Shown: positions 22,513 through 38,522 of the stretch, piece after piece
Position numbering within the stretch: position 1 is the stretch's first letter
Layout: each line of letters begins with the position of its first letter
NCBI RefSeq assembly: GCF_014635665.1
Contig: NZ_BMDG01000017.1
Coordinates: forward strand, 1 to 64,000
DNA from: Isoptericola cucumis
Lineage (GTDB): Bacteria; Actinomycetota; Actinomycetes; Actinomycetales; Cellulomonadaceae
DNA length: 64,000 nucleotides
Direction of reading: 5' to 3'
Position numbers and translations under genes: made by a program
Notes under the pieces: model-generated
What the model was told of the DNA's origin: nothing
The model's database searches: none
The model's input: the letters and a program-made list of their open reading frames with translations, nothing else

Positions 22513-22585
22513 CGTCTCCCTGGCCGTCTTCGCGCCTGCCGGGGCCGGTGTGCGAGCCCTCCGCGTCGGCGAACGGTCGATTTGG

Positions 22586-22601
22586 ATACTCCCGGGGGTA
22601 T
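22586..22601 (+). promoter_or_regulatory. CstR/CsoR-type operator before the CstB-like gene
   Basis: ATACTCCCGGGGGTAT has one mismatch between its 8-bp halves. It is 46 bp upstream of the ATG at 22647 and about 90 bp from the operator that serves the divergent MFS gene. Confidence 0.75.
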
Positions 22602-22646
22602 GTGCCACGCTCGTCTGGCACACCGACCCCGATTGGGAGAGATGCA

Positions 22647-24062
<1,416 letters not shown>

Positions 24063-29454: not shown

Positions 29455-30105
29455 ATGACCTCGCACCCACGCCCCGACCACGACGACGCCCGACCGACGC
29501 TGACGGTGGACCGCTACCGGCCCGGCGACCGCGACGCCCTGTACGACGTCTGCCTGCGCACCGGCGACTCGGGCGAGGACGCCTCCGCCGTCTACGCCGA
29601 CGGCGACCTCCTCGGCCACCTCTACCTCGGCGCGTACCTGGCGCTGGAGCCCGAGCTGGCCCGTGTGCTGCGTCGCTCGGACGGCGTCGCCGTCGGCTAC
29701 TGCGTGGCGACCGCGAGCACGCCCGACTTCGAGCGCCGGTGCGAGGAGAGCTGGTGGCCCCCGCTGCGCGACCGCTACGCCCCGCCCGCCGCCGGAGACG
29801 AGTCGCCGGACGCCCGCCTGGTGCGCGCGATCCACGCCCCCTCGCGCTCCGACGCCGCGTGGTTGGCGCAGTATCCCGCGCACCTGCACGTCGACCTGCT
29901 GCCCGAGGCGCAGGGGGGCGGCAGCGGCCGCCGCGTGCTCGAGGCCGTCCTGGACGCCGTCGGCGACACCGGCGCTCCGGGGATCCACCTCGGCGTCGGC
30001 GGGCGCAACGTGCGTGCGATCGGGTTCTACGAGCACCTGGGCTTCCGCACCGTGGAGCACCAGCCCTGGGGCCTGACGATGGGCATGCGCCTGCCCCGTC
30101 GCTGA
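29455..30105 (+). CDS. GNAT acetyltransferase (first gene of the amino-sugar cluster)
   Basis: A 216-residue GNAT protein. The N-terminal half has RYRPGDRDALYDVCLRTGDSG and an HLYLGAYLALEP segment, as seen in acetyltransferases related to the domain attached to O-GlcNAcases. The acetyl-CoA site is DLLPEAQGGGSGRRVL, followed by GVGGRNVRAIGFYEHLGFR. The ATG at 29455 follows GGGAGGA. It is 115 bp upstream of the NamZ gene, with a separate promoter between. A role in amino-sugar metabolism is inferred from similarity and position. Confidence 0.85.
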   Translation: MTSHPRPDHDDARPTLTVDRYRPGDRDALYDVCLRTGDSGEDASAVYADGDLLGHLYLGAYLALEPELARVLRRSDGVAVGYCVATASTPDFERRCEESWWPPLRDRYAPPAAGDESPDARLVRAIHAPSRSDAAWLAQYPAHLHVDLLPEAQGGGSGRRVLEAVLDAVGDTGAPGIHLGVGGRNVRAIGFYEHLGFRTVEHQPWGLTMGMRLPRR

Positions 30106-30150
30106 GCGTCTCCCCTCCTCACACGGCCTGCCACCCGATCGAACCGGTTC

Positions 30151-30190
30151 GCGAAATTTATTGACGCGGACAAGCATCTGTTCGTAACTT
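30151..30190 (+). promoter_or_regulatory. promoter and possible operator of the NamZ-ABC operon
   Basis: TTGACG (30161-30166) and TAACTT (30185-30190) with an 18-bp spacer form a good housekeeping promoter 30 bp before the NamZ start. The AT-rich strings AATTTATTG and AACTTATTG flank the region as a direct repeat, unusual in this GC-rich DNA and possibly a regulator site. The NamZ GTG is preceded by GAGAGGAG. Confidence 0.7.
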
Positions 30191-30220
30191 ATTGGCACAC
30201 CGGTGTGAGAGGAGTCACTC

Positions 30221-31408
30221 GTGACCACGGCAACGCCGCCGCGGACCGGACTGACCAGGGTCGTCGACGACCCCGGGCTGCTCGGCAAGGAACCCGTCGC
30301 ACTGTGCGCGAACTACACCGCCGTCACCGCGGACCTCGAGCGCGGGGTCGACGCGCTCCTGGCCGCCGGCGTCCCGGTCACCTCGCTGCTCACTCCCGAG
30401 CACGGGTACTGGGGCGCCGCCCAGGCGGGCCTCAGCGACGGCGACGGCGTCGACGCCCCCACCCGCCTGCCCGTGCTCGACACCTACCGCGTCGCCGGCG
30501 CCGACCTCGACGCGCTCCTCGGGCGGTCCGGCGCCGACCACGTCGTCGTCGACCTCCAGGACGTCGGCACCCGGTTCTACACCTACATGTGGACGCTGTA
30601 CGACCTGCTGTGCGCCGCCGCCCGGACCGGGCGGCGCCTCACCGTGCTGGACCGGCCGAACCCGCTCGGCCGCCGGCGGGCCGGGCCCGGACTCGACCCC
30701 GCCTGCGCGAGCTTCGTGGGCCGGGAGTCCGTTCCGCTCCAGCACGGGCTGACGCTGGGCGAGCTGGCGCGCTGGTTCAACGCCGTGCACGTGCCGGCCG
30801 TCGCCGGGCGCGGCGCCGACCTCGCCGTCGTCGAGCTCGACGGCTGGGACGGGGGCCGGCGAGCCGACGACGAGCCGTGGGTCATGCCGTCCCCGAACCT
30901 GCCCACGCTCGACTCCGCCGTCCTCTACCCCGCCACCGGGCTCGTCGAGGGCACCACGCTGTCCGAAGGACGCGGCACCACGCGCCCGTTCGAGCTCCTC
31001 GGGGCGGGCTGGACCGACGGACGGCTCGCGGCCGCGCTGCGCGAGCGGCAGCTGCCGGGCGTCGTAGTGCGGGAGGCCGTGTTCCGCCCCATGTTCTCCG
31101 CGTGGGCCGGCGAGACCGTCCACGGCGTCCAGCTCCACCTCACGGACTCGGGCGACTTCGACCCGCTCGCGACGGGGTTCGCCCTGCTGCGCACCGTCGC
31201 CGACCTCTACCCGGACCGGGCCCTGTGGCGCGACCGGTCCGAGGGCCGCCCCCCGTTCGTCGACCTCCTGTGGGGGTCGCCGTCGCTGCGCGAGGGCATC
31301 GACTCCCGCGCCACGCTCGCGGAGATCCTGCGGGCCGCGCCCGACACGCCCGCGATCCCGCCGGGCACGGTCCTCTACCCGAACCACCCTGCGGAGGTTC
31401 CTGCGTGA
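30221..31408 (+). CDS. namZ: NamZ-type exo-beta-N-acetylmuramidase (DUF1343), no signal peptide
   Basis: A 395-residue DUF1343 protein. Conserved blocks are LLTPEHGYWG (Glu-containing PEHG), DLQDVGTRFYTYMWTLYDLL, VLDRPNPLG, GRESVPLQHGLTLGELARWFN and PSPNLPTLDSAVLYPATGLVEGTTLSEGRGTTRPFE. Characterised NamZ enzymes release MurNAc from the non-reducing end of peptidoglycan chains. This one starts directly with MTTATPPRTGL and has no signal sequence, so it should act in the cytoplasm on imported fragments. The genes behind it overlap in turn and end in an oligopeptide-type ABC transporter. Substrate is inferred. Confidence 0.9.
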   Translation: MTTATPPRTGLTRVVDDPGLLGKEPVALCANYTAVTADLERGVDALLAAGVPVTSLLTPEHGYWGAAQAGLSDGDGVDAPTRLPVLDTYRVAGADLDALLGRSGADHVVVDLQDVGTRFYTYMWTLYDLLCAAARTGRRLTVLDRPNPLGRRRAGPGLDPACASFVGRESVPLQHGLTLGELARWFNAVHVPAVAGRGADLAVVELDGWDGGRRADDEPWVMPSPNLPTLDSAVLYPATGLVEGTTLSEGRGTTRPFELLGAGWTDGRLAAALRERQLPGVVVREAVFRPMFSAWAGETVHGVQLHLTDSGDFDPLATGFALLRTVADLYPDRALWRDRSEGRPPFVDLLWGSPSLREGIDSRATLAEILRAAPDTPAIPPGTVLYPNHPAEVPA

Positions 31409-32103
31409 CACCCCAGACAGTCCTGGCCGTCGGCGCCCACATCGGCGACATGGACCTCGCGGCCGGCCCCGTCCTCGCCCAGAACGTGCTCGACGGCGGC
31501 ACGTCCGTGCTCGTCGCTCTCACCCCCGGCGAGCGCGGCCACCCGCGCCTCGACGCCGAGCGCTACAAGGCGCAGAAGATCGCCGAGGCCGAGGCGTTCG
31601 CCGACGGCATCGGCGCCCGGGTCGTCGTCTTCGACGACCTCTCCGACGGTTTCCTGCCCGCCGACGACGCCGTCGCCGACCGGCTCACCATGCTGGTGCG
31701 GGACGTGCGCCCCGACCTGATGCTCGCCCACTGGCCGCGCAGCATGCACTCGGACCACACCAACGCCTCGACGGTCGCCGAGCGGGCACGGTTCCTGGCC
31801 GGCCTGCCGGGCCACCGGGAGGATGACCGCCCGCGTCACGGGGTCGCGCGGTTCCTCTACACCGAGAACTGGGAGGACGCCCCGGGCTTCGAGGCGGACA
31901 CCTTCGTCGAGATCTCGCCCGAGGCGCAGGCGCGCTGGACGGACGCGATCAGCGGCCAGGCGTTCGCCCGGGGCGAGACGTACGGGTTCCGCTACATCGA
32001 CTACTACTCGGCGCAGATGGTCACGCGAGGCTGCCTGGCGGGCGTGCCGCACGCCGTCGCGTTCTCGAGCGGCGACCTCCCGGCGCTGCGGAGGCTCCCG
32101 TGA
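31405..32103 (+). CDS. PIG-L family deacetylase with a variant metal motif
   Basis: A 232-residue PIG-L/LmbE protein. The usual AHPDDE reads AHIGDMD here, keeping His and Asp but replacing the final Glu by Asp and the Pro-Asp by Ile-Gly. The second motif is MHSDHTNAS. The family removes N-acetyl groups from GlcNAc-type sugars. The GTG start overlaps the namZ stop (GTGA) and its own stop overlaps the next start. Together with NamZ and the GNATs it suggests de- and re-acetylation of amino sugars in the cytoplasm. Activity should be confirmed because of the variant motif. Confidence 0.85.
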   Translation: MTPQTVLAVGAHIGDMDLAAGPVLAQNVLDGGTSVLVALTPGERGHPRLDAERYKAQKIAEAEAFADGIGARVVVFDDLSDGFLPADDAVADRLTMLVRDVRPDLMLAHWPRSMHSDHTNASTVAERARFLAGLPGHREDDRPRHGVARFLYTENWEDAPGFEADTFVEISPEAQARWTDAISGQAFARGETYGFRYIDYYSAQMVTRGCLAGVPHAVAFSSGDLPALRRLP

Positions 32104-33065
32104 CCGTCACCTACCGGGGGCACCGGCCCGGCGACCTCGAGGCCCTCGCCGAGCTCACGGCCGTCGCCATGCCGCGCGACGTCGTGAGCGAGGAGTGGCT
32201 CGCGGAGAACGTGCTCCTCGACGTCAACTTCGACCCGGACGGCCTCGTCGTGGCGGCGGACCAGGAGACCGGGCAGCGGCTCGGCTTCGTCTACGCGGTG
32301 GTCGCCGCCCGCGGCGTCCCCGCCGACCCGGCCGCGGGCTTCCTCACCATCGGGTGCGTCCACCCCGACCATCGCCGTCGTGGCATCGGCACGCGCCTGC
32401 TGAGGCGCGCGACGGAGCACCTCGCCGCACGCGGCGCGACGTCGGTCACCTACGCCGGATACCCGCAGGCCTACTTCCTGCCGGGCCTGGACGTCGACAC
32501 CTATCCCGAGGCCGCCGCCCTGCTCGCCGCCCACGGCTTCGCGACGCGGTACACCGCGGCCGCGATGACGCTCGACCTCGACGCGTACGCCATGCCCGCC
32601 TCGGTGCGGGACCTGGTGCGCGCCCGGACCGACGAGGGGTACCGCCTCGGGGTGGCCACCTACGACGATCTGCCGGACGCCATCGAGTTCGCGTCCCGCC
32701 GGCTCGCGCCGGACTGGGGGCTCGCGATCCGTGACTCCGTCCTGCGGCACGGTCAGGGCCCCGGCCGGGTGCTCCTCGCCCGGGACCCCGCGGGCGACGT
32801 CGTCGGCGTCTCCACCTACGGCGCCTACCGCGGCCTGCGCGAGCGCTTCGGGCCCATCGGCGTCGACGAGTCCCGTCGCGGGACCGGCCTGGGCCGTGCG
32901 CTGCTCCACCTCACCCTCACGCGGATGCGGGCCGAGGGCGCGCACTCCGCCTGGTTCCTGTGGACCGGGGAGGACTCCCCCGCCGGCCACCTGTACCGGT
33001 CCACGGGGTTCGACGTCGTCCGGCGCTTCGAGGTCATGCGCGCGCCGCTCGACGCGCGCCCCTGA
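32100..33065 (+). CDS. tandem-domain GNAT acetyltransferase
   Basis: A 321-residue protein with two GNAT domains. The N-terminal one has GCVHPDHRRRGIGTRLLRRA, a complete acetyl-CoA site. The C-terminal one has GPIGVDESRRGTGLGRALLHLT followed by GHLYRSTGFDVVRRFEVM. The GTG start overlaps the PIG-L stop by 4 bp, so expression is coupled. Acceptor unknown; an imported amino sugar or muropeptide is the natural guess. Confidence 0.87.
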   Translation: MTVTYRGHRPGDLEALAELTAVAMPRDVVSEEWLAENVLLDVNFDPDGLVVAADQETGQRLGFVYAVVAARGVPADPAAGFLTIGCVHPDHRRRGIGTRLLRRATEHLAARGATSVTYAGYPQAYFLPGLDVDTYPEAAALLAAHGFATRYTAAAMTLDLDAYAMPASVRDLVRARTDEGYRLGVATYDDLPDAIEFASRRLAPDWGLAIRDSVLRHGQGPGRVLLARDPAGDVVGVSTYGAYRGLRERFGPIGVDESRRGTGLGRALLHLTLTRMRAEGAHSAWFLWTGEDSPAGHLYRSTGFDVVRRFEVMRAPLDARP

Positions 33066-33144
33066 CCCTCCCCGCGGGAGCCGCCAGCGGCATCCGCCCG
33101 GCACGACGAGCAACCCACGACCAATCCACCCACGAGAGGCCACC

Positions 33145-34806
33145 ATGAGAACGACGACGTTCCCCCGAGCGGCCGCGGTGCTCGCCGCAGCTTCGCTCGC
33201 CCTGGCCGGCTGCAGCGGCGCCGGCGGCGACACCGGTCAGCCCGCACCCGGCGGCGCCCCGGCGGCCCTGTCCGTCCACGCGAACACCGCGAACACCTAC
33301 GAGCGCAACTTCAACCCGTACTCGCCCACCGCCAACCAGGGCACCAAGGGGATGATCTACGAGCCCCTGCTGCTCAACACCCCGATGACCCCCGGGGAGT
33401 CCGTCCCGTGGCTGGCGGAGTCCATGGAGTTCAACGAGGACGGCACAGTCGCGACGTTCACGCTCCGCGAGGGCGTGACGTGGTCCGACGGCGAGGCCTT
33501 CGACGCGGACGACGTCGCGTTCACGTTCAACCTCATGCGCGACAACCCGGCCGCGAACGCGTCGGCCCTGGACCTCGACAAGGCGACCGCCGTCGACGCC
33601 CGCACGGTCGAGGTGGCGTTCAACAGCACGTCGTTCGCCTTCAAGGAGGCGATCGAGAACACCGTCATCGTCCCGGAGCACGTCTTCGCGGACGTCGACC
33701 CCGTCGAGTTCACGAACGAGAAGCCGGTGGGGACGGGCCCCTTCGTCCTCGGCGACTTCTCGCAGCAGCTGTACACGCTGACCAAGAACGACAGGTACTG
33801 GAACGCCGACGAGGTCGAGGTCGGCGAGGTCCGGTACCCGGCGGCGTCCGACCAGACGTTCAACACCTCCCTGCAGGCCGGGGAGCTGGACTGGGCCGGC
33901 GGGTTCGTCGCGAACATCGACCAGATCTTCATCAACCAGGACCCGGAGAACCGCTCGTACTGGTACCCCGGCGACGGCCTCGTCAACCTGCTCGTCAACG
34001 ACCAGAAGGCCCCGTTCGACGACCTCGAGCTGCGCAAGGCCGTCTCCGCCGCCGTCGACCGCGACCAGCTGTCCGAGGTCGCGATGCAGGGGTACACGCC
34101 GCCGGCCCACCCCACGGGACTGCCGCTGCCCGCCTTCGAGGGGGTCATGAGCGACGAGTACGCCGACGCGGCGTTCACGCGGGACGTGGACCGGGCCAAC
34201 CAGCTCCTCGACGACGCCGGCTACGCGAAGGGCCCCGACGGGGTGCGCACGACGCCCGACGGCGAGCGCCTGTCGTTCACCCTGCAGATCCCGTCCGACT
34301 ACGTCGACTGGGTGACGATGTCCCAGCTGTTGTCCGAGCAGCTCAAGGAGGTCGGGATCGAGCTGAAGCCGCAGGGCGTGTCGTTCGACGCCTGGCTGCA
34401 GGCGCGCGGCGCCGGCGCGTTCGAGATGACGATCGCGTCCGTGCCGATGGGGCTGTCCCCGTACACCCTCTACCGGGCCATCATGAGCTCGGAGTACCGG
34501 GAGGACGAGGGGCCGGTCATCGCCAACTACTCGCGCTTCTACGACGAGGAGGCCGACGCGCACCTCAAGGCGTACGCGGCGACCGACGACGAGGCGCAGC
34601 AGCAGGCCGCGCTCGACGGGATGCAGCAGATCATGGTCGACGAGCTGCCGCTCATCCCGCTCCTCCAGTCGCCGAACTGGGCGCAGTTCAACACCGCGAG
34701 CTGGGAGGGCTTCCCCAGCGAGGAGGACCCGTACGCCCTCGGCGCGCCGTACCAGTTCCCCGACAACCTGCTCGTCGTCACCCGCCTGACCCCGGCCGGG
34801 AAGTGA
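33145..34806 (+). CDS. family 5 solute-binding lipoprotein of an oligopeptide-type ABC transporter
   Basis: A 553-residue lipoprotein with signal peptide and lipobox LALAGC at about residues 18-23. The mature chain has the SBP_bac_5 pattern: YEPLLLNTP, FTLREGVTWSDGEAFDADDVAFTFNLM, GTGPFVL and a C-terminal LPLIPLLQSPNW. It captures the imported ligand outside the membrane. Family 5 proteins bind peptides but also oligosaccharides and muropeptides. It follows the GNAT by 79 bp and precedes the permease by 7 bp. Confidence 0.94.
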   Translation: MRTTTFPRAAAVLAAASLALAGCSGAGGDTGQPAPGGAPAALSVHANTANTYERNFNPYSPTANQGTKGMIYEPLLLNTPMTPGESVPWLAESMEFNEDGTVATFTLREGVTWSDGEAFDADDVAFTFNLMRDNPAANASALDLDKATAVDARTVEVAFNSTSFAFKEAIENTVIVPEHVFADVDPVEFTNEKPVGTGPFVLGDFSQQLYTLTKNDRYWNADEVEVGEVRYPAASDQTFNTSLQAGELDWAGGFVANIDQIFINQDPENRSYWYPGDGLVNLLVNDQKAPFDDLELRKAVSAAVDRDQLSEVAMQGYTPPAHPTGLPLPAFEGVMSDEYADAAFTRDVDRANQLLDDAGYAKGPDGVRTTPDGERLSFTLQIPSDYVDWVTMSQLLSEQLKEVGIELKPQGVSFDAWLQARGAGAFEMTIASVPMGLSPYTLYRAIMSSEYREDEGPVIANYSRFYDEEADAHLKAYAATDDEAQQQAALDGMQQIMVDELPLIPLLQSPNWAQFNTASWEGFPSEEDPYALGAPYQFPDNLLVVTRLTPAGK

Positions 34807-34813
34807 CCACGGC

Positions 34814-35791
34814 GTGAAGTACCTCCTGCGCAAGGTGCTGCTCTACGTGTTCATCGCCTGGGCCGCGCTGACGATGAACTTCCTCATCCCCCGCCTGATG
34901 CCCGGCGACCCGGTCTCGTTGCTGGTCGAGCGGCTCAACGGCCGGATCGACCCGGCGGCGATGTCCGCGATCGCGGAGAGCTACGGCATCACGGACGACC
35001 CCCTGCTGGTGCAGTACCTGGACTACCTCGGCTCCCTCGCGCGGGGCGACCTGGGCCTGTCGATCGGGCTCTATCCCGTGCCGGTCGCGGACATCGTCAT
35101 GGGCGCGCTCCCCTGGACGATCGGCCTCGTCGGCACGACCACGGTCATCAGCTTCGTGATCGGCACGGCTCTCGGGGTCGTCCTCGCGTGGCGGCGCGGG
35201 AAGCGCACCGACCTCCTCCTGCCCGGCCTGACGTTCCTCAACGCCGTCCCGTACTTCTGGATGGCGCTGATCCTGGTGCTCGTCTTCGCCGTGAACCTGG
35301 GCTGGTTCCCGGTCTCGCAGGCGTACACGCCGGGCCTGACCCCGGGCCTGACGCCCGAGTTCGTCGGCTCGGTGCTGTACCACGCGGTCCTGCCGGCGAT
35401 CACCATCATCATCGCGTCGTTCGCCGGCTGGGTGCTGAGCATGCGCAACATGACCGTGACCGTCCTCGGCGAGGACTACGTGACGATGGCCGAGGCCAAG
35501 GGGCTGCCGCGCCGGATGATCCGGCTCGACTACGCCGCGCGCAACGCGATCCTCCCGTCGGTGACCGGGTTCGCGCTCTCGCTCGGCGCCGTCGTCGGGG
35601 GCTCGATGCTGACGGAGGTCATCTTCAACTACCCCGGCGTCGGCTACACCCTCTTCCAGGCGGTCCAGAACCAGGACTTCCCCCTCATGCAGGGCCTGTT
35701 CCTCATCATCTCGCTCGCGGTGATCGCGGCGAACCTCATCGCGGACGTCGTGTACGTCTTCCTCGACCCGCGCACCCGGCAGGAGGGCTGA
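34814..35791 (+). CDS. ABC transporter permease (DppB/OppB type)
   Basis: A 325-residue permease with six helices, the N-terminal [32 protein letters not shown] of the family and the EAA loop [22 protein letters not shown]. It pairs with the permease half of the next protein. A GTG start at 34814 follows the binding-protein stop by 7 bp. Confidence 0.94.
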
Positions 35792-35793
35792 GC

Positions 35794-37677
35794 ATGTCCC
35801 GAGCCACATCACGGGCCACGTCCCGGGCCACGTCACGAGCCACGTCACGGGCCACCCCACGCGCGATGACGCGGGCGATGTCACCGTCGACGCTGCTCCC
35901 GTCGTCCGGCAAGGTCCGGCTCGGCCTGGCCATCACGCTGTTCTTCGTGCTCCTCGCGGCGCTGGGCCCGCTGCTCACCGCCTACGACCCGCAGCAGAGC
36001 GGCCCGGACATCCTGCAGCCGCCGTCGGGCCAGCACTGGTTCGGCACCACGCAGACCGGGCAGGACGTGTTCTCCCAGTTCGTGCACGGCGCCCGGGTCT
36101 CGCTCGGCGTCGGGGTGGTCGCGGGGATCGTCTCGCAGGTGATCTCCGTGCTCGTCGGCATGATCGGCGGCTACTTCCGCGGCGCGACCGACGAGCTCCT
36201 CTACGTCCTCACCGCGGTGTTCCTCGTGGTGCCGGGCATGCCGCTCCTCATCGTCCTCACCGGCTACCTCCCGTCCCGCGGGATGGTGTCGGTCGCGCTC
36301 GTCATCGCCATCACGTCCTGGGCGGGGTCCGCGCGGGTGCTGCGCGCCCAGACGATGTCGCTGCGCCGGCGCGACTTCGTGGAGGCGGCTCGCGCGACCG
36401 GCGAGTCGCGCACCCGGATCATCTTCTCCGAGGTCATGCCGAACGCCCTGCCGCTGGTCGCGTCGGGCTTCCTGTTCTCCGTGATCACGGCGGTGCTCTC
36501 CGAGGCGGGGCTGTCGTTCCTCGGGCTCGGGTCGCTGACCACCACCAGCTGGGGGTCGATGCTCTACTTCGCGCAGAGCGCCCAGGCCTTCCTCTACGGC
36601 GCCTGGTGGTGGTTCGTCCCGCCCGGGCTCGCGATCGCTGTCGTCGGCGCGGGCCTGGCCCTCATCAACTTCGGGATCGACGAGTTCGCCAACCCTCGCC
36701 TGCGCACCGGCAGGAGCCGGCGTCGGCCGGTGCGGCGGTCCGGTCCCGTCGCGGCCGCGCTCGCCGCGGCGACCACGGCCCCGGAGGTCCGGGAGCCCGA
36801 GTCGTCGGAGCCCACCGACCCCGGCCCCCAGGTCCGGCCGGCGGACGTCGCGGGCGACCCCGTCGTCTCGGTCCGCGACCTCGTGGTCGAGTACGACACG
36901 CCCGACGGCCGGGTGCGCGCGGTGGACGACGTGTCCCTCACGCTGCACCGCGGCGAGGTCCTGGGGCTGGCCGGCGAGTCCGGCTCCGGCAAGTCGACGC
37001 TCACCAACGCCGTCACCCGGCTGCTGCGCACCCCCGCCGAGGTCACGGCCGGGTCGATCACCTACCACCGCAGGTCGCGGGACGGCTCCCGCCGCGAGGA
37101 CGTCGACCTCCTGGGCCTGCCCGACGACGAGCTGCGCGTCCTGCGCTGGAGCGAGATCGCGATCGTCTTCCAGAGCGCCATGAACGCCCTCAACCCGGTC
37201 ACCCGGGTGTCGGCCCAGTTCGACGACGTGGTCCGCGTCCACCGGCCCACCATGCCCGCCGCCGACCGCCGGGCGCTCGCGGTGCAGATGCTGCAGAAGG
37301 TGGGCATCGAGCCCGACCGGGTGGACGCCTACCCGCACGAGCTGTCCGGGGGGATGAAGCAGCGTGTCGCCATCGCGATCGCGCTCGTGCTCGAGCCCGA
37401 GGTCATCGTCATGGACGAGCCGACCACCGCGCTCGACCTGCTGGTCCAGCGCGAGGTGCTCGACCAGGTCATGCGGCTGCGCGACGAGTACGGGTTCGCG
37501 ATCGTCTTCACCACCCACGACCTCGCCCTGCTGCTGGAGATCGCGGACTCCATCGCCGTGATGCAGACCGGCCGGCTCGTCGAGTACGGCCCCGCGCTCG
37601 AGCTGTACACCGACGCCCGCCACCCGTACACGCGCGCGCTGCTGCGCTCGCTCGCCGACCTGGGAGCCCTCCTGTGA
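35794..37677 (+). CDS. fused ABC permease (DppC type) and ATPase (DppD type)
   Basis: A 627-residue fusion of two usually separate subunits. Residues 1-29 are seven repeats of (S/P/T)RA(T/M). Residues about 40-310 are a DppC-like permease with EAA loop [25 protein letters not shown] charged linker follows to about 350, then an ATPase with Walker [10 protein letters not shown], signature [15 protein letters not shown] and Walker [13 protein letters not shown]. Other ATGs (35866, 35878) lie in the repeat, so the N-terminus may be shorter. It is read continuously with no sign of a lost stop. Its stop overlaps the next gene (GTGA). Confidence 0.93.
35797..35880 (+). repeat. seven 12-bp coding repeats, SRAT type
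   Basis: Five near-identical 12-bp units (TCACGGGCCACG type, 35797-35856) and two diverged ones (35857-35880) encode SRAT x5, PRAM and TRAM at the start of the permease-ATPase fusion. Copy number could change by slippage without breaking the frame. Confidence 0.9.
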
Positions 37678-38522
37678 GCACCACGACCACCAAACGCCCC
37701 GGACCCGCCACCGGCGAGGTGGTGCTCGAGGCGCACGACCTGGTCAAGGACTTCCGGGGCAAGCGTGCCGGGCTCCGTCGCACGCGGTTCCGCGCCGTCG
37801 ACCACGTCTCGCTGGCGCTGCGCACCGGCCAGGTGACGGCGCTCGTGGGACAGTCCGGCTCCGGCAAGAGCACGGTCGGGCGGCTGCTCGCACGTCTCGT
37901 GCCGGCGACCTCCGGGGAGATCCTGCTGCGCGGGCGTCCGGTCACGGCGACCCACGGCCGCCGCTTCGTGGAGTACACCTCGACGGTGCAGATGACCCTG
38001 CAGGACCCCTTCGCGTCGCTCAACCCCGTGCACCGGATCTCCCACGTGCTGGAACGGAGCCTGCGCATCCACGGTCACGCCGCCACCGCCGAGGAGGTGG
38101 AGCACCAGAGCCTCGAGCTCCTGCGCCGGGTGAACCTCACGCCGCCCGAGCGGTACCTGCACCGGTTCCCGCACGAGCTGTCGGGTGGCGAGCGGCAGCG
38201 GGTCTCGTTCGCCCGGGCCCTCGCGGCACAGCCGCAGGTGCTGCTCGCGGACGAGCCGGTGTCGATGCTGGACGTGACGATCCGCAAGGAGATCCTCGAC
38301 CTGCTCGCCGACCTGCGCCGCACCGAGGACCTCGCGGTCCTCTACATCACCCACGACCTCGGCTCCGCCCGCGCCTACTCCGACGACACGGTCGTGATGT
38401 ATCACGGCCAGGTCGTCGAGCGCGGGCCGAGCCACGAGGTGATCGACGACCCCCAGCACGAGTACACCCGGCGGCTGCTCGCCGCAGCGCCGAACCCGCG
38501 GCGGCGGCTCGACGCCCGCTGA
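37674..38522 (+). CDS. ABC transporter ATPase (DppF type)
   Basis: A 282-residue ATPase with Walker [11 protein letters not shown]-loop [14 protein letters not shown], signature [16 protein letters not shown], Walker [13 protein letters not shown] and the C-terminal oligopeptide-transporter extension ending AAPNPRRR. With the fused ATPase it forms the heterodimeric motor of the importer. The GTG at 37674 overlaps the preceding stop. Confidence 0.94.

Follow-up and report, generated by a model that had tools for sequence, protein, structure and literature searches.

How actinobacteria take up N-acetylmuramic acid (MurNAc), or the oligosaccharides that contain it, is an open question. Streptomyces coelicolor has MurQ and no MurP ortholog according to an excerpt of PMC5061867, and the available part of PMC13041923 describes the way in which mycobacteria recycle MurNAc as largely unclear. 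A stretch of Isoptericola cucumis DNA, here called the window (64,000 nucleotides of NZ_BMDG01000017.1, contig 17 of a 4.46-Mb genome in 29 contigs), raises this question in a concrete form, as it carries a gene for a protein of the exo-β-N-acetylmuramidase family NamZ, without a signal peptide, ahead of the genes of an ATP-binding cassette (ABC) importer. We conclude that this operon (30221-38522, plus strand) probably serves the salvage of amino-sugar oligosaccharides derived from peptidoglycan, most likely MurNAc-N-acetylglucosamine (MurNAc-GlcNAc), and that it offers a candidate importer together with a predicted intracellular exo-muramidase. This reading rests on sequence, namely gene content, the absent signal peptide, the protein families, the recurrent linkage to MurQ, glycoside hydrolase family 3 (GH3), MurR, AnmK and AmiE-like proteins, and fusions of the single-domain acetyltransferase GNAT1; from these we infer the ligand, the order of the reactions and the role of the GNAT acetyltransferases.

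A NamZ protein predicted to be cytoplasmic

NamZ enzymes are specific for MurNAc at the non-reducing end. The window protein scored 193.6 and 142.2 bits with the Pfam profiles PF07075 and PF20732 (cut-offs 26.9 and 25, respectively), and all six motifs that we chose from alignments (PEHG, QDxGxRFYTY, DRPNPxG, HGxTxGEL, PSPNxP and SxGRGTxxPF) were kept, likewise in the exported paralog of the same genome. The protein lacks the N-terminal signal by which exported NamZ proteins were recognized, and a signal peptide is in fact impossible, because the reading frame is closed four codons upstream of the GTG start. The paralog, located on contig 4, has 434 residues and a signal-like N-terminus, is 45% identical to the window protein, and adjoins a GH3 protein (PF00933, E = 1.2e-86) that also has a signal-like N-terminus. 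In view of the differing N-termini of the two NamZ proteins, the organism is therefore predicted to have one NamZ outside and one inside the cell. The sequence-only reading of this DNA had listed a GNAT, a NamZ without signal peptide, a PIG-L-fold protein, a tandem GNAT, a lipoprotein and a complete ABC importer, and this gene set was confirmed by translation and Pfam searches (Table 1).

The importer recurs beside NamZ genes without a signal peptide

A contig scan yielded 11 relatives, nine of them at 58-71% identity, in Ruania (two), Occultella (three), Brachybacterium (two), Nesterenkonia and Haloactinopolyspora. The importer is complete in seven of these nine; in another the contig stops after permease B, and the Haloactinopolyspora stretch is without an importer. 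Hidden Markov models confirmed, among other neighbors in the relatives, MurQ (in Nesterenkonia with 345 bits, the cut-off being 302), AnmK (460 bits, cut-off 440), RpiR/MurR-type regulators, GH3, NagB and a PF00144 hydrolase.

The survey covered 57 NamZ loci, consisting of 54 fetched loci, the window, L014 and L018. By hand count, the fetched loci comprise 24 of 74 non-own NamZ rows (starting with the closest and going on to paralogs), a further 23 out of about 80, and seven more; L010-L013 and L015-L017 were each counted once, and L090 is part of no count. Many NamZ matches outside this sample are 42-50% identical. Neighbor labels (GH3, MurQ, AmiE-like and others) are best tblastn matches at 1e-10, and Pfam or NCBIfam searches on part of them all agreed. 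NamZ was without a signal peptide at 41 loci and had one at 15, while that of L070, cut off at a contig end, stands outside this split. The coupling of a cytoplasmic NamZ to an importer in a peptidoglycan-salvage setting, for which the sequence-only reading had suggested a survey of co-occurrence, is supported by recurrent linkage: an Opp-family importer was present at 28 of the 41 signal-less loci versus none of the 15 exported ones. The tandem GNAT (32/41 versus 0/15), the PIG-L-fold protein (14/41 versus 0/15) and MurQ (23/41 versus 1/15) were distributed in a similar manner, whereas a GH3 protein nearest to the exported query was found at 3 of the signal-less and 11 of the exported loci. 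The surveyed sequences are related and their origins few, and a Fisher value of 4.6e-6 is no proof, because it treats related sequences as independent.

Beside the 28 importers we found MurQ (17 loci), a NagZ-like GH3 (13), an AmiE-like hydrolase (17), MurR (7) and AnmK (3), and 22 of these loci hold at least one of MurQ, MurR, NagZ, AnmK and BadF. The importer is close to that of the window in 19 cases and distant in nine; AmiE-like proteins are encoded near 9/19 close and 8/9 distant importers, and NagZ-type GH3 proteins near 8/19 and 5/9, respectively.

NamZ, GH3 and AmiE-like proteins appear to change compartment together

Whether a protein has a signal peptide was decided with a home-made rule, which missed the NamZ of L062 (set to exported by eye). 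Proteins were called AmiE-like when they belong to PF00144, as checked with Pfam in eight proteins including the genome's own, and lie beside GH3 and NamZ as in Bacillus subtilis, whose AmiE presumably belongs to the same family. Beside exported NamZ proteins, 10 of 11 GH3 and eight of nine AmiE-like proteins have a signal peptide. Beside signal-less NamZ with an importer, 11 of 14 GH3 proteins are without one, two are cut off, and one, the NagZ of L026, was called exported by the rule, which we take to be false; 16 of the 17 AmiE-like proteins lack a signal peptide, and the remaining one is cut off. Beside the other signal-less NamZ proteins, both GH3 and all five AmiE-like proteins are without a signal. 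These counts suggest that the three enzymes relocate jointly, and such relocation would yield a rule, open to testing, that predicts in which compartment a species degrades wall fragments.

A tree of 58 NamZ proteins, rooted at the midpoint, shows a minimum of two changes in the signal trait, with the signal-less rows forming one group of 37 and one of four (L071-L074), the latter apparently a separate loss of export. In these four loci, from genomes of the window's family, the signal-less NamZ stands beside MurQ and a CUT1-type permease.

The lipoprotein resembles chito-oligosaccharide-binding proteins

The importer had been described as a complete oligopeptide-type system. It is indeed complete, but oligopeptide is not a good guide to its ligand, since the lipoprotein scores best with chito-oligosaccharide-binding proteins, its best solved relatives (E = 5.8e-72). 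The next matches, at 1e-57 to 1e-47, are entries named oligopeptide-, mannoside- or plain substrate-binding, and nickel and peptide binders follow only from about 1e-26. We take these second-tier entries to be Thermotoga sugar binders, partly on the basis of PMC8449061. Entry names alone cannot settle the ligand, because several Vibrio sugar binders were named peptide or oligopeptide binders by their depositors.

A lipobox-like LALAGC was seen by eye in the lipoprotein. The same portion of PMC8449061 gives Trp363, Asp365 and Trp513 as key residues of the Vibrio chito-oligosaccharide-binding protein (CBP), and Asn204, Trp363, Asp365 and Trp513 as conserved in oligosaccharide binders of cluster C-VI. 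Trp363, Asp365 and Trp513 align with Tyr386, Asp388 and Tyr536 of the window lipoprotein, and an aromatic residue at the Trp363 position together with the Asp is kept in 19 of the 20 aligned relatives (those with variants printed). This residue pattern favors a disaccharide ligand, short of proof. In L029, one operon encodes the binding lipoprotein twice in tandem (58% and 52% identity to that of the window), and in L036 there are no permease matches between the lipoprotein and the last ATPase, so this operon is possibly decayed.

Acetyltransferases and the PIG-L-fold protein

The editing of acetyl groups that the sequence-only reading proposed is supported for its acetyltransferase half, by a GlmA-like fold and by fusions of GNAT1 to a kinase and to GH3, and not for its PIG-L half. 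A structural model of the tandem GNAT (predicted local distance difference test [pLDDT] score 86.7) matched the glucosamine N-acetyltransferase of Clostridium acetobutylicum at ranks 1 to 6 (Foldseek E = 2e-20, template modeling [TM] score 0.76) and a fungal GH3-linked enzyme at rank 7. We take the C. acetobutylicum entries 5kf1, 5kgh and 5kga to be GlmA. Such GNATs can N-acetylate peptidoglycan fragments ahead of glucosaminidase cleavage, according to an excerpt of PMC4680927.

In Nesterenkonia sedimenti (L014, 8309-9898), a BadF/NagK-type kinase encoded directly upstream of NamZ carries the GNAT1 homolog at its C-terminus. In a genome of the window's order (L090, 6724-8997), a frame of 758 residues begins with GH3 (PF00933, 4e-75) and ends with a GNAT1 homolog (PF00583, 1.8e-8). 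Here, too, a NamZ gene follows directly, its product judged by eye to be without a signal peptide, and the same stretch encodes an importer (32% identity for the lipoprotein, 50% for the permeases), MurQ, MurR and BadF. Because of these fusions to a sugar kinase and a GH3 glycosidase, GNAT1 appears to belong with amino-sugar enzymes. It is no marker of the operon, being near only 2 of the 41 signal-less NamZ genes and common elsewhere: homologs occur in 122 of 396 genomes of the order, usually unlinked to salvage genes, and none of 23 other GNAT1 loci fetched had salvage genes alongside, cross-matches of ATPases or permeases aside. Long GNAT1 frames elsewhere were also considered as fusions to salvage enzymes, which held for none of 8 and none of 15 and is true only for L014 and L090.

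The PIG-L-fold protein has HIGD where LmbE enzymes have HxDD, and Gly replaces the first Asp in 14 of 14 proteins. This Asp is the proposed general base in LmbE enzymes, while in BshB it may act only as an acid, according to the part of PMC4101496 at hand. The metal ligands H12, D15 and H118 are invariant. In a fold search with a model of the protein (pLDDT 80.3), the hydratase GalB came first (E = 1.2e-12), level with BC1534/BshB, and other deacetylases ranked behind them; GalB (5cgz) also lacks the first Asp of the motif (HSAD). Because the proposed general base is absent throughout, N-deacetylation by this protein is doubtful. The tandem GNAT is present in all 14 loci with a PIG-L-fold protein.

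MurQ and candidate kinases are encoded elsewhere in the genome

At 1e-10, a tblastn search of the window found none of MurQ, MurR, the GH3 NagZ, AnmK, BadF kinase and AmiE-like proteins, in agreement with the earlier statement that MurQ is missing there. The conclusion drawn from it, that the downstream route would be new, has to be abandoned: MurQ adjoins the importer in 17 of 28 loci, and such a route is not required because the genome encodes MurQ, two AnmK proteins and a BadF kinase elsewhere. One MurQ lies on contig 13 (position 125090; 315.5 bits, over the cut-off of 302), directly preceded by the BadF kinase, and a second on contig 3 (position 51604) scores 297.6 bits, just under the cut-off; with this profile, 12 of 14 control genomes match at 0.001 and only five above the cut-off. 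AnmK is encoded on contig 13 and, as two pieces of one frame, on contig 3, where the cluster also holds a signal-less GH3, a CUT1-type permease and an RpiR regulator. In this GH3-AnmK-MurQ cluster (43000-61000 of contig 3), a gene resembling lipoate-protein ligase separates the RpiR regulator from the CUT1-type importer.

Operon layout, upstream region and origin

Table 1. Features of the NamZ operon and the region directly ahead of it
Feature	Coordinates	Strand	Evidence or remarks
GNAT1, single-domain GNAT acetyltransferase	29455..30105	+	PF00583, E 1.8e-7
Candidate promoter/operator	30152..30196	+	half-sites CGAAATTTATTGAC (30152-30165) and CGTAACTTATTGGC (30183-30196), 31 bp apart
NamZ, exo-beta-N-acetylmuramidase family, no signal peptide	30221..31408	+	PF07075, 3.4e-57; PF20732, 2.9e-41
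PIG-L/LmbE-fold protein, HIGD replacing HxDD	31405..32103	+	PF02585, 9.4e-17
Tandem GNAT, fold of glucosamine N-acetyltransferase	32100..33065	+	PF00583, 1e-18, two stretches
Substrate-binding lipoprotein, family 5, nearest chito-oligosaccharide binders	33145..34806	+	SBP_bac_5, 4e-74
ABC importer permease, DppB type	34814..35791	+	PF00528, E 3.4e-41
Fused permease (DppC type) and ATPase (DppD type), 627 aa	35794..37677	+	PF00528 and PF00005, single frame
ATPase, DppF type	37674..38522	+	PF00005, E 1.3e-28

According to the coordinates, overlaps of four bases join NamZ to the PIG-L gene, the PIG-L gene to the tandem GNAT, and the last two importer genes, and gaps of 79, 7 and 2 bases separate the tandem GNAT from the lipoprotein, the lipoprotein from the permease, and the permease from the fused protein, respectively. 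The fusion of permease C and ATPase D into a single frame recurs in 16 of the 28 importer loci. The G+C content at third codon positions is 0.84-0.99 in the frames holding proteins of the operon region other than NamZ and PIG-L. GNAT1 lies immediately ahead of the operon and may be a separate transcription unit, because a promoter-like stretch separates it from NamZ. In this stretch, the two half-sites of 14 bases overlap a TTGACG (30161-30166) and a TAACTT (30185-30190) with a spacer of 18. Of 17 upstream regions that we picked, 11, the window's among them, contain a comparable -35/-10 pair, the likeness of half-sites being judged by eye. With one mismatch allowed, a search of the whole genome returned the operon's pair, the only pair, and one match on contig 11, by eye on the other strand of a coding region for an ATPase Walker A stretch; the idea of a genome-wide regulon was discarded on this result. 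A MurR-type regulator is the natural candidate for the putative operator, though none is encoded in the window.

Within the window's family, 12 of 221 genomes have a NamZ match at 1e-20 and, besides the window's own, no match exceeds 54% identity. In the tree, the window NamZ groups with Brachybacterium with support values of 89 and 91, below the starred level. Horizontal gain of the operon is likely. A phage-type integrase (PF00589; 27141-28430, minus strand) lies about 1.8 kb upstream of NamZ and is at most a possible vehicle of the gain. No tRNA was found in the 64-kb window. At 22563-24059 (plus strand) a protein with a metallo-beta-lactamase fold and a rhodanese domain is encoded, and resembles a persulfide dioxygenase fusion.

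Proposed pathway and alternative explanations

A cytoplasmic NamZ coupled to an importer is thus the part of the sequence-only reading that finds support, whereas PIG-L deacetylation and a new downstream route do not. In the pathway that we propose, the lipoprotein would bind a wall fragment outside the cell, the ABC importer would take it in intact, and the cytoplasmic NamZ would cut MurNAc from the non-reducing end, after which a kinase and MurQ encoded elsewhere in the genome would convert MurNAc to GlcNAc-6-phosphate. The tandem GNAT and GNAT1 may re-acetylate N-deacetylated sugars so that glycosidases can act.

Several findings weigh against this pathway. NamZ activity and lipoprotein binding are predictions from sequence. 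Depending on the motif, 24 to 40 of the 41 signal-less NamZ proteins match it, and several deviate, those of L046, L048, L049, L054 and L056 in four of the six motifs. Nine of the 28 importers are distant, with lipoproteins 22-27% identical to that of the window; MurQ is nearby in only 9/19 close importer loci versus 8/9 distant ones, and six of the 28 loci (the window and L031-L035) have no MurQ, MurR, NagZ, AnmK or BadF in the stretch. A test on independent pairs gives only two pairs, with which the importer association cannot reach significance, and because there are only two independent contrasts we make no statistical claim on it. The genome encodes two further binding proteins, 37-38% identical to the window lipoprotein. 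The pathway assigns no reaction to the PIG-L-fold protein. Asp287 of the solved glucosamine acetyltransferase, one of two residues mutated in deposited GlmA structures (the other, Tyr297, falls outside the printed alignment), aligns with Leu287 of the tandem GNAT, whose substrate and mechanism may therefore differ.

Of the other explanations, import of disaccharides from chitin or chitosan, or of other glycans containing GlcNAc or glucosamine, with NamZ drifted to a non-muramic substrate, is unlikely. Those relatives of the lipoprotein with solved structures bind (GlcNAc)2 and the tandem GNAT resembles glucosamine N-acetyltransferases, but linkage to MurQ, AnmK and MurR in other genomes points to MurNAc, and the window protein retains its NamZ motifs. 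About as improbable is an imported fragment that still bears its peptide, to be stripped inside the cell by an AmiE-like hydrolase or the PIG-L-fold protein. The signal-less AmiE-like proteins at the importer loci would fit this, as would the amide hydrolases among LmbE-fold enzymes (in the available part of PMC4101496); however, the lipoprotein resembles disaccharide binders, and the genome's single AmiE-like match at 1e-10 (contig 4, position 165686) has a signal-like N-terminus, so peptide removal in this organism probably takes place outside. That an unrelated peptide or metal importer merely follows NamZ is very hard to credit: NCBIfam labels the parts of the importer as nickel/oligopeptide, with no score above cut-off, but the same importer follows NamZ in eight of the nine close loci (seven whole, 50-87% identity), and a close copy is present at 19 of the 41 signal-less loci, a conserved linkage that contradicts chance adjacency. 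A bolder proposal, which we regard as conceivable yet rather unlikely, is that Actinobacteria have a wholly cytoplasmic counterpart to the NamZ-NagZ-AmiE system of Bacillus with its own ABC importer, in which the base-less PIG-L protein would, instead of deacetylating, carry out a new reaction on an imported MurNAc saccharide, for example hydration or release of a lactyl-linked group.

Comparison with known systems

No description of a cytoplasmic NamZ or of this operon was recognized among the matches listed in a literature search, from which absence from print does not follow. The best solved relatives of the lipoprotein are structures of the Vibrio CBP (1zty, 5yqw, 6lzq and others; PMC8449061, seen in part); Asp365 is kept in the window protein, whereas both Trp residues are Tyr, and its ligand is a prediction. 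YejBEF-YepA of Agrobacterium is likewise an ABC importer for peptidoglycan fragments, likened here by its description in an excerpt of PMC9790009. The tandem GNAT has the C. acetobutylicum enzyme and the fungal GH3-GNAT protein 4zm6 (part of PMC4680927) as its top structural matches (TM 0.73-0.80), but is only 16-18% identical to them; the GH3-GNAT fusion of 4zm6 recalls the GH3-GNAT1 fusion of L090. With the PIG-L/LmbE deacetylases BshB, MshB and chitobiose deacetylase, and with GalB, the window protein shares the fold and the H, D and H metal ligands; it differs from the deacetylases in having Gly at the first Asp of HxDD, an Asp that GalB lacks as well.

The closest pathway is that of the B. 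subtilis cluster murQ-murR-murP-amiE-nagZ-ybbC, of which we take ybbC to be NamZ. The set of MurQ, MurR, AmiE-like, NagZ-like GH3 and NamZ proteins recurs, in varying subsets, around the operon in its relatives. In B. subtilis, AmiE and NagZ act outside the cell and MurNAc enters via the phosphotransferase system protein MurP, as the cluster is described in the accessible part of PMC5061867, whereas here NamZ, and in the relatives also GH3 and AmiE-like proteins, are without signal peptides and an ABC importer replaces MurP. The operon is thus best read as a predicted cytoplasmic variant of the Bacillus NagZ-AmiE-NamZ salvage, a known pathway in a conserved new form.

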